A stretch of DNA of 37,358 nucleotides from Nakamurella sp. GTDB lineage: Bacteria > Actinomycetota > Actinomycetes > Mycobacteriales > Nakamurellaceae. The stretch covers positions 1 through 37,358 of the forward strand of contig JADGOY010000016.1 of NCBI GenBank assembly GCA_017882715.1, written 5' to 3'. This document shows, one piece after another, positions 15,268 through 21,181 of this stretch. Within the stretch, counting starts at the first letter, position 1, and each line of letters starts with the position of its first letter. The notes beneath the pieces are model-generated. The model saw only the letters and a list, made by a program, of their open reading frames with translations, was not told the DNA's origin and searched no databases. The translations under genes and the position numbers were made by a program.

Positions 15268-15348
15268 GTGACCTCCCGGGGTGAATGTCCGGCGGTGGAC
15301 CGCCGGGCCACGCACGGTCAGTCAAATACACCTGCCGCTCCGACAGAA

Positions 15349-15364
15349 TGGGGGAAATCCCCCA
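15349..15364. promoter_or_regulatory. Operator-like inverted repeat upstream of the aldolase operon
   Basis: A perfect inverted repeat TGGGGG-AAAT-CCCCCA lies 82 bp upstream of the aldolase GTG. The position suits a regulator site, or a small hairpin in the leader. Neither has direct support. Confidence 0.35.
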
Positions 15365-15434
15365 CTGGCCGCCGGACGCAGCCGCGGTTTCGCGCGTGAC
15401 CCGGCGTCGACATGCCACCGTCCGACTGTCGACC

Positions 15435-15587
15435 GTCGCAACACCGGGCATCTTCGACCCCTCCTGCGACGAACGGTTGGGTGCTCCGCGCGGTCGGTGG
15501 CGACCGGGTTGGACCCCAGCACACGAGCAACGCTGGGTGAACCGCGGCAAAGTCGCAACACCGGGCATCTTCGACCCCTCCTGCGAC
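15435..15587 (-). repeat. Two identical 36-bp repeats containing a ribosome-site-like sequence and ATG
   Basis: The copies at 15435-15470 and 15552-15587 are identical and separated by 81 bp. On the minus strand each reads GTCGCAGGAGGGGTCGAAG, then ATG, then CCCGGTGTTGCGAC. So each carries GGAGGGG about 6 bp before an ATG, and each is bounded by the inverted hexamers GTCGCA and TGCGAC. They lie between the GAF-LuxR gene and the aldolase operon. Confidence 0.85.
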
Positions 15588-15599
15588 ACGCGCCCAGGA

Positions 15600-16943
15600 T
15601 CACCCCGGGGCAGGCGACCCCGACGGCAACCACCCCCGCTCGAGGGCGCGCATCACGGCGGCAGTCCGGTTGGTCGTCCCGGTCTTCCGCAGCAATGCGC
15701 CGACATGTTTCTCGACTGTCTTCGGCGAGATCACCAGCGCCTTGGCGACCGACCGGTCGGTCAACCCCCGCGCCAGCAACCCGGCGACCTCCTGCTCCCG
15801 CGGGGTGAACGGGGACGGGTCAGGTTCGGCGCGCTGTGTCGACGCGGTGTGAGTCGAACTGCTGCGGTTCGAGGCGCTGTCGTTCGATCCGATGTGGGGC
15901 GACCCGAAGTGGCGCGACCCGAAGTGGCGGGACCCGAAGTCGGGCGACCCGAAGTGGCGGGACCCGAAGTCGGGCGACCCGAAGTGGCGGGACCCGAAGT
16001 CGGGCGAACCGCCGTGAGTCGACCAACTGCGGGTCGATTCTCGAGGTGTCGCTTCTCCGAGGGTGGCCTCGTAAGGCAGGTCCGCGCGCACCAGCGTTCC
16101 CCAGCCGGCGACGTGTTCGACGCTCACTCCCCCGCCCGTACTGTCGACAAGCTCCTGCCAGCCGTGGTCGCCCAAGCCCGCCTGATGGATCGAGGCGCCG
16201 CCGGGCGGGTCGGCCGCGTCGTCGTAGACGAGTAACCGCAGACCATCGGCCCGGTGCACGACCGCGACATGCAGCCGGGCCGTCGGTTCGCGTCGAGCCG
16301 CGGCACGTTCGGCCAACGTCACGAGGTCCAGGGCTACTCCGGCGACCGACGGTGCCACCGGACGGGCCCGGCCGACCTCGGTGACGACGGTGCGCAGTCC
16401 GTCGACGGCGGCGTCCTGCCGTCGATACTCCCGGATCATGTTGGCCAGCGACGGGTCGCTCGCTCCCGCCTTGACAATGCCGGGCGCTGCCAGCTGCGTG
16501 AGCAGCTCGAGGCTGTCGACCTCCTGCGCGGTGAATCGCCGTTCTCGGCCGGCGAAGGTGACGTTCACCCCGATGACGTCCCCACGCCACCAGATCGGGA
16601 CGGCGACCACCGCGCCGCGGCCGGCCGGGTGGCCGTCCGGCAGGTGCCCGGCCGAGATCTCCTGATAGCTGCTCAGCACCACCGGCCGGCGCCGCGCGAC
16701 GACCTGTCCGGTGACTCCCTGGTCCAGCGGGAACGTCTGGCCCAGCTGGCAGGAGGCGCCACGCTCGGCCATCTTGGTGTAGTGCTCTCGCGGCGAATCG
16801 ACGAGTGAGATGCTGCCTGCGACCGCTCCCAGCAGGTCACCACTGCGGGTGAGCAGGCGACGAAGAAACGGCGAGAGTCGGAGGTCGGAGTAGAACTCGG
16901 CCGCGACCAGGTCGAGCTCCAGCCCGAGCTGTTGTTGCCTCAT
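15600..16943 (-). CDS. GAF-domain LuxR-type transcriptional regulator with repeat linker
   Basis: A 447-residue predicted regulator. Residues about 20-155 form a GAF-like sensor (GDLLGAVAGSISLVD, LDQGVTGQVVARRRPVVLSS, VVAVPIWWRGDVIGVNVTF). Residues 165-290 resemble a degenerate histidine-kinase region ending in a GHKL-like tail (HGWQELVDSTGGGVSVEHVA, GWGTLVRADLPYE) without clear catalytic motifs. A linker of 5-residue repeats (GSPDF/GSRHF) follows at about 312-347, then a LuxR helix-turn-helix (FTPREQEVAGLLARGLTDRS, PKTVEKHVGALLRKTG). The start ATG 16943-16941 lacks a good Shine-Dalgarno. It lies 332 bp upstream of the aldolase operon on the same strand and is a reasonable candidate for its regulator, by position only. 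Confidence 0.8.
   Translation of the reverse strand: MRQQQLGLELDLVAAEFYSDLRLSPFLRRLLTRSGDLLGAVAGSISLVDSPREHYTKMAERGASCQLGQTFPLDQGVTGQVVARRRPVVLSSYQEISAGHLPDGHPAGRGAVVAVPIWWRGDVIGVNVTFAGRERRFTAQEVDSLELLTQLAAPGIVKAGASDPSLANMIREYRRQDAAVDGLRTVVTEVGRARPVAPSVAGVALDLVTLAERAAARREPTARLHVAVVHRADGLRLLVYDDAADPPGGASIHQAGLGDHGWQELVDSTGGGVSVEHVAGWGTLVRADLPYEATLGEATPRESTRSWSTHGGSPDFGSRHFGSPDFGSRHFGSPDFGSRHFGSRHFGSPHIGSNDSASNRSSSTHTASTQRAEPDPSPFTPREQEVAGLLARGLTDRSVAKALVISPKTVEKHVGALLRKTGTTNRTAAVMRALERGWLPSGSPAPG
15901..16005. repeat. In-frame 15-bp tandem repeat in the GAF-LuxR gene
   Basis: Seven 15-bp units alternate between GACCCGAAGTGGCGG and GACCCGAAGTCGGGC, so the higher-order period is 30 bp. They encode the GSRHF/GSPDF linker between the sensor region and the DNA-binding domain. 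All units are multiples of three and keep the frame. Confidence 0.92.
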
Positions 16944-18725: not shown

Positions 18726-19332
18726 TCAACCGGGCTCGAGGGGAGGTGCAATCGTGCGAATGTTGCGGATGGAACCAGTCAGTACCTCATTCCCTCGAAC
18801 AGCGACCAGGCAGCGTGGTTGACCGTCGTTGGGATCCGTTGTTGCGAGCACCAGTACTTTGAGCCGACCCGAGACTTGCTCAAAGCTCAGATTCATGAGG
18901 CGCGACGCGGCCGCTTCACAGCCGGCCTGATCTTCAACCCGCCCCGGCAGGTGAGCCGATGTACTCACCCGTATGAGGTGAATCGCATCCAACGTCGACC
19001 GCCGCGCTCCGGTCGTCTCGACACAACCGAAAGGAATCTCCTGTCGATTCCTCGAGAATTCCTCGAATCGACGTCGTACGGTCAGCATCGTCGGCGCCCG
19101 AAACCAGGCAGTAGGTGACGCCGGCGTCGGCCGTCTCCACGACGAAACCGGCTCGGATGAGATCGAGTGCGCGGGATGGACCTCCTGACAACAATGCCCG
19201 CCATCCTCGACTTCGGTGATCCGCGAGCGCCTTACCGGGCTTCTTGTTCGGATCCGGAGCTTGCGACGACTTGTCGCCGGCATTGCCGGAATCGGGCACC
19301 TGTCCGCCCGAATGTTCGGGGTCACCGCCCAT
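18726..19332 (-). pseudogene. Septum-formation-domain-like protein, frameshifted
   Basis: The ATG at 19332-19330 overlaps the last base of the lipoprotein stop codon (TGATG), so translation is likely coupled. Frame one gives MGGDPEHSGG, ALDLIRAGFVVETADAGVTY and VGCDSPHTGEYIG, and stops at 18936-18934. The neighbouring frame continues without a gap: VEDQAGCEAAASRLMNLSFE, QVSGRLKVLVLATTDP, PRCLVAVRGNEVLTGSIRNI, ending at 18726. The CDxPHTGE motif, the later Cys and the PRC-x-VAVRG-x-VLTGS ending resemble septum-formation domain proteins of actinobacteria. The total length is 607 bases, one more than a multiple of three. It may be a true pseudogene, a sequencing error or a ribosomal frameshift; the shift lies near 18940-18960. 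Confidence 0.5.
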
Positions 19333-20144
19333 CAGGATACGGTCAGGCCTTCCACGACGACGACGACGCCTTGATTCGAGCACTTCGCTGGATCGAGTTG
19401 GAAGGCAATCTTCAGAGAATTCGCGTCGGTGACGTCTTCCTTGAATGGCTGAACGACATCGAATGCGACACCTTGGCTGTCGATTTTCGTGCCGTTCTTG
19501 ACGACATCCACGACGACGACGTCGTCCGAGGTCATGGAGTTGTTGGCCTGGCCGACTTTCATCTGCAATGTGCTGAAGCGATGGGCCAGTCGGAGTTCGA
19601 GCTGGACGCCGCTGCCACCGCAAGAGCTCAGCGTAGTCGCCATACCAAAAACGTTGCTGGTGTCGGAGATGTCGTACCGCTCCTCCTTCCATTCGCCGAC
19701 GGTCGAAAAGATGTCCGCCAGGCCCAGCGTTCGACCACTGGCGCTGGTTGGGACGACCTGGGGCCCATCGGTGGAATCCCCCGATCCCGGCTCACCGGTC
19801 AAGTCGGATGATGCGGCCGTTCGCGAACCGCTGGCGGAGGAACCGGTGGACGACGTCGACGTGCTCTTGGTGCTGATCGACGGCGAGGACGAGGGTGACG
19901 GTGACGGTGACGATGAGGACAGGGTCATCGAGCTGTCGGTCGTCGATGAGGAAGTCGGCGAGACCGACGAGGCAACCGATGCGACCGGAGTCTGCGCGGT
20001 CTGTGACCAACACCCCGCAATAGCGAGCAGAGCCGCGCCGCTGACGAAAATGGTGGCCACGGTGCCCAGGCGTCGCTGGGAACGAGTTGCATTCCGATCC
20101 GGCCGCCCCTGAACACTCGGCGACAGGCTGGACAACGAGTCCAT
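19332..20144 (-). CDS. Lipoprotein with Ser/Thr-rich linker and NPCBM-like C-terminal domain
   Basis: A 270-residue predicted lipoprotein. A charged N-terminus leads to a hydrophobic segment (about 28-44) ending in lipobox IAGC, with lipidated Cys45. A long Ser/Thr/Pro linker (about 50-135) would span the wall. Residues about 140-270 form a beta-rich domain (LADIFSTVGEWKEERYDISD, VQLELRLAHRFSTLQMKVGQ, VVVVDVVKNGTKIDSQ) that resembles NPCBM carbohydrate-binding modules. It may bind peptidoglycan or surface glycan. ATG 20144-20142 has GGAGGGG 7 bp upstream, inside a potential hairpin. It follows ftsQ by 188 bp, where ftsZ normally lies, and is coupled to the next gene. Domain assignment is moderate; the lipoprotein nature is clear. 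Confidence 0.72.
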   Translation of the reverse strand: MDSLSSLSPSVQGRPDRNATRSQRRLGTVATIFVSGAALLAIAGCWSQTAQTPVASVASSVSPTSSSTTDSSMTLSSSSPSPSPSSSPSISTKSTSTSSTGSSASGSRTAASSDLTGEPGSGDSTDGPQVVPTSASGRTLGLADIFSTVGEWKEERYDISDTSNVFGMATTLSSCGGSGVQLELRLAHRFSTLQMKVGQANNSMTSDDVVVVDVVKNGTKIDSQGVAFDVVQPFKEDVTDANSLKIAFQLDPAKCSNQGVVVVVEGLTVS

Positions 20145-20222
20145 ATGCTGACCCCTCCATTTGGCGTAGTGCAGCTTGCGCTACGCATGGAGGACGGCCC
20201 TACACGCCTCCATAATGGAGTT
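20145..20222 (-). promoter_or_regulatory. Leader with alternating complementary segments that can bury the Shine-Dalgarno site
   Basis: On the plus strand CCTCCAT (20154-20160), ATGGAGG (20187-20193), CCTCCAT (20207-20213) and ATGGAG (20215-20220) alternate. In the minus-strand RNA the segment at 20160-20154 is ATGGAGG and contains the lipoprotein Shine-Dalgarno. It can pair with CCUCCAU at 20193-20187, extended by GCGUAG/CUACGC (20186-20181 with 20169-20164), hiding the ribosome site. The same CCUCCAU can instead pair with the upstream AUGGAGG at 20213-20207, freeing it. This is a mutually exclusive layout of riboswitch or attenuator type. No ligand or U-tract is evident, so translational control is the likelier mode. 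Function inferred. Confidence 0.5.
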
Positions 20223-20332: not shown

Positions 20333-21181
20333 TCAGCGCACGCTCACCAGTGTCGGATCCGAGATATTGTACGCCGTCCCCTGCTGCGCGAGCACCGCGG
20401 GCAATATCTCCATCTTCTGCGCGGAATCCGACGCCTCGCCCCAGATCACCGATCGCCCGTCGGTCAGCTTCAGCTCGATGTCGTAGGACGTGCGCGCCGA
20501 CAGATCCGCGACCTGCGAGCGGAAATCGGGCGTCAATGCGCCCACCACCGTCAATGCCGCGACGGTCGCCGGGTCGCTCACTCCGGGCGTCGCGAGCTTC
20601 ACCGTCACCAGGCCCGCCGGGGGCGTGTCGACCGCGAGGTAGGGATCGCCGGTGCTGTCCATCAACCAGAACCGCCCGTTGGCGGACGTGACCGCCAACG
20701 GGACCCGCGGGGTCACGGTCACGGCGAGGGTGGCCGGCCAATTTCGGGCGACCTCGACCTCGGCGATCTCAGAGATCGCGTTCACACGCTCGGCGACAGC
20801 GTCCAGGTCGACTCTGGCCAGCGGTGTGCCGACCGGAACATCGACGGCGCCGCGGACCTTGACGCTGACGGAATCAGTCGCGCCGGTGATGCTCACCGCC
20901 CGCACCCCGAGCAGCGGGCTGAAGAACACCGCGTACACCGCGCCGGTCATCAGCACGATCGCCAGCACCAAGGCGAGAATCCACGGCCAGCGACGGGGAG
21001 CCCACCGCGGATCGGTTGGTCCGGCCGTTACTGTTGGCTCGGCCGTTCCTGCTGGCTCGAAAGGTGCCTGCTCCCGGTGGGAGAACCTTCGCCGCAGCCG
21101 GGCTCGAATCCCCCGCCGCGTCGGTGCCGTTTCCGGTTCGGCGGTGGTACGCGGATTCCCGCCCGTCGTTGCGGTGCTCAC
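20333..21181 (-). CDS. ftsQ: Cell division protein FtsQ
   Basis: A 282-residue bitopic divisome protein. A cytoplasmic Arg-rich N-terminus (about 1-65) precedes one membrane helix (WILALVLAIVLMTGAVYAVFF, split here only for reading, about 70-90). The POTRA domain follows at once (LLGVRAVSITGATDSV, VPVGTPLARVDLDAVAERVN), then the FtsQ/DivIB domain (VEVARNWPATLAVTVTPRVP). GTG 21181-21179 overlaps the murC stop by 4 bp. FtsQ links early and late divisome proteins at the membrane. In most actinobacteria ftsZ follows; here it does not. Confidence 0.93.
   Translation of the reverse strand: MSTATTGGNPRTTAEPETAPTRRGIRARLRRRFSHREQAPFEPAGTAEPTVTAGPTDPRWAPRRWPWILALVLAIVLMTGAVYAVFFSPLLGVRAVSITGATDSVSVKVRGAVDVPVGTPLARVDLDAVAERVNAISEIAEVEVARNWPATLAVTVTPRVPLAVTSANGRFWLMDSTGDPYLAVDTPPAGLVTVKLATPGVSDPATVAALTVVGALTPDFRSQVADLSARTSYDIELKLTDGRSVIWGEASDSAQKMEILPAVLAQQGTAYNISDPTLVSVR

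Follow-up and report, generated by a model that had tools for sequence, protein, structure and literature searches.

A leader hairpin predicted to sequester the Shine-Dalgarno sequence of a lipoprotein-like gene downstream of ftsQ in Nakamurella sp.

The leader of a lipoprotein-like gene in Nakamurella sp. carries four short segments that alternate with their own reverse complements and end on the gene's Shine-Dalgarno (SD) sequence. Such an arrangement raises the question of whether the RNA could switch between a fold that hides the ribosome site and one that frees it, as the initial annotation had proposed. The segments lie on the minus strand of the window (the whole 37,358-nucleotide stretch of DNA that we analyzed, to which all positions refer unless another source is named), between ftsQ (20333 to 21181), which encodes POTRA_1 and FtsQ_DivIB_C domains and whose stop codon falls 112 nt before the first segment, and the lipoprotein-like open reading frame (ORF) (19332 to 20144), which starts with an ATG at 20144. 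In minus-strand order the sequence runs ...TGATATCAA CTCCAT T ATGGAGG CGTGTAGGGCCGT CCTCCAT GCGTAG CGCAAGCTGCA CTACGC CAA ATGGAGG GGTCAGCAT ATG.... The alternation spans 20220 to 20154 and comprises S1 (CTCCAT, 20215 to 20220), S2 (ATGGAGG, 20207 to 20213), S3 (CCTCCAT, 20187 to 20193), and S4 (ATGGAGG, 20154 to 20160). S4 overlaps the SD sequence GGAGGGG (20158 to 20152), and S3 is the anti-SD arm. S1 can pair with S2 in a 5-bp hairpin or, as CTCCATT, with the AATGGAG of S4; S2 can pair with S1 or S3, and S3 with S4 (its dominant partner) or S2. Pairing of GCGTAG (20186 to 20181) with CTACGC (20169 to 20164) extends S3:S4 across a 3-nt bulge and forms the upper stem and loop (20164 to 20186) of a 42-nt hairpin (20152 to 20193; −23.3 kcal/mol). 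Reading the minus strand bore out the four complementary segments, their coordinates, and the lengthening of one pairing by GCGTAG/CTACGC. The segment said to come first and to overlap the SD does overlap it, but it is the last one on the minus strand and is first only in plus-strand order.

To ask which folds compete, we computed minimum-energy and suboptimal structures of the leader. The minimum-energy fold (−47.7 kcal/mol) combines S1:S2 with S3:S4 and its upper stem, and the main alternative (−45.0 kcal/mol) is a three-way junction in which S2:S3 and the GCGTAG hairpin lie inside S1:S4, the upper stem and loop being present in both. Two competing folds within ∼3 kcal/mol exist, as had been claimed, but neither frees the ribosome site. 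A division into one hiding and one freeing fold is unsupported because S1 takes S4 when S2 takes S3, so that the SD is paired in the junction as well (CTCCATT/AATGGAG, 7 bp). The best SD-free fold reaches only −36.5 kcal/mol, and forbidding SD pairing costs 11.2 kcal/mol. What stands is the hiding itself: S3:S4 is predicted to cover the SD, both in the minimum-energy structure and across the ensemble. As modeled, the two folds are not an on/off pair, unless S1 is left untranscribed or a ribosome or protein intervenes.

Pairing, occlusion, and dependence on the ends of the transcript are all computed properties of this leader. As the 3′ end grows, minimum-energy folding prefers the junction for partial transcripts ending from ∼20154 to ∼20122 and the S3:S4 fold from ∼20118 on, the SD being paired in either. 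Among the transcript starts tested at and upstream of 20193, all but 20232 leave S3:S4 dominant; with that one again set aside, the SD bases have a mean unpaired probability of 0.002 to 0.03 for starts between 20332 and 20193. A transcript from 20232 divides about evenly between the two folds, and its SD is unpaired with a probability of 0.13. A contest between hiding and freeing may be possible only where S1 is absent or masked, yet even then S3:S4 is predicted to be more than 98% populated (starts 20216 and 20213). From start 20190 on the SD is more open, with an unpaired probability of 0.24 there and of 0.39 at 20187.

The leader is more stably folded than expected (z = −3.3 for 111 nt; z = −2.3 for 211 nt), and opening its SD takes 8.4 kcal/mol; for 107 plausible, SD-bearing starts from the same genome the mean is 3.9 kcal/mol, and 3 of them reach 8.4. 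With 100 nt of upstream context folded, this places the gene in the top 3 to 4% for SD occlusion; with 70 nt the rank is weaker, and 18 of 138 starts have an SD opening energy as high. The plus-strand version of the hairpin is more stable still (−26.6 versus −23.3 kcal/mol), so the stability of the stem gives no hint that the sense RNA has been under selection.

We give roughly even odds (about 0.5) to the reading that best accommodates these results, namely, that a hairpin private to this lineage covers the lipoprotein SD in the 5′ leader and acts as a static brake. Its action in the cell, and the reason for it, we infer as follows. The four segments would form either S3:S4 with the small S1:S2 hairpin or the S1:S4 plus S2:S3 junction. 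With the SD occluded in either fold, little translation is expected from transcripts whose 5′ end lies at 20193 or farther upstream, any read-through from ftsQ among them, and the hairpin would then restrain read-through or basal expression. Relief could come from transcription that begins downstream of 20187, or from melting of the stem by a protein or by a ribosome on the leader. The structure accordingly has the look of a conventional translational brake, or in part of a chance feature, and not of a new riboswitch. If it acts, it would be one more SD brake, leaving a gene beside the division operon untranslated from read-through.

SD-sequestering leader hairpins prevent full-length or read-through transcripts from being translated, and such hairpins resemble this one in placing an anti-SD arm on the SD and in letting the start or end of the transcript set accessibility. 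They differ in that the present hairpin is a single occurrence, known here from sequence and predicted folds. Metastable SD-hiding structures in a type I toxin mRNA are one example (PMC6733600). In the present case neither processing, an antisense RNA, nor a toxin is involved.

The comparison with other genomes bears on how private this feature is. FtsQ was present in all 16 congeners (42 to 59% identity), but the sequence that follows ftsQ in them is different, with ftsZ there in several and unrelated sequence in others. No orthologous leader was found in the 16 congeners, in 200 genomes, or in the genomes of 84,980 species; the four-segment pattern was likewise absent from the last set, which may not include the genomes closest to the source. 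A DNA search of 61 relatives gave short, weak matches only, and the arm pattern CCTCCAT..ATGGAGG occurred in a single congener (G009), in which the rest of the stem differs. The gene downstream of the hairpin appears similarly isolated. Its 270-amino-acid product has an LAIAGC lipobox and a Ser/Thr-rich linker, received no family assignment in Pfam, NCBIfam, or PDB sequence searches, and had no relative among the 84,980 genomes and no clear one within the genus. Its single homologue in the samples is distant (36% identity, or 42% over the C-terminal domain) and comes from a different family of the same order; it was the sole match besides the source in 200 genomes, and the leader of that homologue lacks the S1 to S4 elements. 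Judged by these searches, the gene is poorly conserved, and the best reading of the hairpin is that it is lineage-private.

The dcw cluster is broken after ftsQ here (at 20333) and, among loci L020 to L035, in several congeners. In the broken clusters ftsZ is not the next gene within the stretch read, whereas other congeners keep ftsQ-ftsZ.

Part of the hairpin feature may possibly be due to chance. The strongest competitor of the brake, to which we assign a clearly smaller probability, is that partial self-complementarity has arisen around one SD in a GC-rich genome with GGAGG-type SDs, without selection and with little effect. In a background of 337 kb from the same genome (the window and 20 further stretches), a four-fold alternation of a 6-mer with its reverse complement inside 80 nt is seen 10 times. 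Because dinucleotide-shuffled copies of the window yield a mean of 0.5 such alternations, finding one in a 37-kb stretch is not surprising. Loci with a hairpin of equal or greater stability number 1,011 on the two strands of the 337 kb, although just 10 of them are as AT-rich (GC content of ≤0.62); the three equally occluded starts noted above show that the occlusion has equals, and nothing is conserved. Against chance, none of 5,000 shuffles of this 232-nt leader reproduced the four-fold alternation, and GCGTAG/CTACGC prolongs a stem that falls exactly on the SD. The S1 to S4 feature is thus locally strong but globally not unique.

The segments had alternatively been suggested to be four half-sites for a DNA-binding protein, in this case a regulator of the lipoprotein gene, and this we regard as unlikely. 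S1 and S2 do form a perfect dyad (CTCCATTATGGAG), a 6-1-6 palindrome. Exactly two occurrences of the palindrome CTCCATNATGGAG exist in the genome, and the second also continues with GCGTG. This second copy of the extended sequence CTCCATNATGGAGGCGTG (positions 1501 to 1518 of locus L037, equivalent to C264:17197-17214 of the same genome) lies a short way upstream of what may be the GTG/ATG start of a hypothetical ORF. Two copies, however, do not make a regulon: at ≤1 mismatch there are 7 sites versus ∼10 expected by a rough estimate, which is no enrichment of the kind that a regulon's operator would show upstream of several genes, and an exact copy was absent among the matches listed in congeners. 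The 3-nt asymmetric bulge and the unequal spacing also fit a dyad array poorly. Nor is the leader a site of the FtsR motif given in PMC6683498, with a best match of 14/25 here versus 15/25 elsewhere in the window. Upstream of ftsZ in five other loci (L026, L027, L029, L030, and L031) we did observe a conserved TTGACATAACTATAA...GGTTNAGGGTT-like element, which by eye resembles that motif.

A still less probable account is a translational attenuator of the ermC type, in which a ribosome on a short upstream ORF (uORF) would occupy S3 and open the SD. The candidate uORF (MEACRAVLHA*, 20181 to 20213, minus strand; 10 codons) runs from S2 into the 5′ arm of the hairpin, covering S2 and S3 and stopping inside the arm, and any function for it is putative. 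Masking a ribosome footprint raised SD accessibility from 0.008 to 0.37 for a transcript starting at 20213, and TGATATCAA, by eye, offers an extended −10-like site 7 nt upstream of the uORF ATG. A −35 box is not evident, though, a promoter scan gave no site, and nothing of this arrangement is conserved. Because the uORF has no SD, only leaderless initiation is left for it. When S1 is transcribed, a ribosome at the uORF stop drives S4 into pairing with S1, leaving the SD largely occluded (accessibility 0.21); in these computations a masking ribosome opens the SD only if S1 is untranscribed or the ribosome is mid-ORF. In the ermC four-segment scheme, S2:S3 pairing frees S4. The leader shares with erm-type attenuators, of which ermB is one example (PMC8274638), the four alternating segments, the short upstream ORF, and an SD in the last segment. 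Here, unlike in ermC, S4 finds a complement in S1, which covers the SD again, and unlike in erm systems the leader peptide lacks its own ribosome site and no resistance gene follows. That a leaderless 10-codon uORF at S2 and the S3:S4 hairpin form a compact attenuator, with leader translation opening the lipoprotein SD, we consider slightly more doubtful again. More generally, a switch should not be proposed from alternating complementary segments until pairing of the outer two (S1 with S4) has been checked.

Least probable is a riboswitch that senses a ligand by exchanging an SD-hiding fold for an SD-freeing one: two folds do compete within ∼3 kcal/mol, with about equal occupancy from start 20232, but the SD is hidden in both, which largely refutes it thermodynamically, an aptamer core is not evident, the pattern does not recur in 84,980 species, and the leader matches no Rfam family, in agreement with the earlier statement that it belongs to no described riboswitch class. 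No Rfam covariance model reached its gathering score on the leader, the best hits being at a chance-level 16 to 17 bits. Cis-regulatory RNAs in Rfam, riboswitches and thermometers among them, sit like this leader 5′ of a gene and over an SD; the stem here, by inference, looks too stable for an RNA thermometer, and we rejected that class. An intrinsic terminator was set aside as well, the leader having no predicted site and no U tract after the stem. CsrA, whose sites present GGA in loops, was a further candidate considered for this leader.

Elsewhere in the window, the dcw cluster begins with an Rfam mraW RNA (RF01746; 35757 to 35858, minus strand), which scores 54.1 bits versus a cutoff of 50. 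A repeated stretch at ∼15400 to 15600 gives VATPGIFDPSCD twice in a plus-strand ORF (15285 to 16235) and a repetitive GSPDFGSRHFGS stretch in a GAF-LuxR protein encoded on the minus strand (15600 to 16943).
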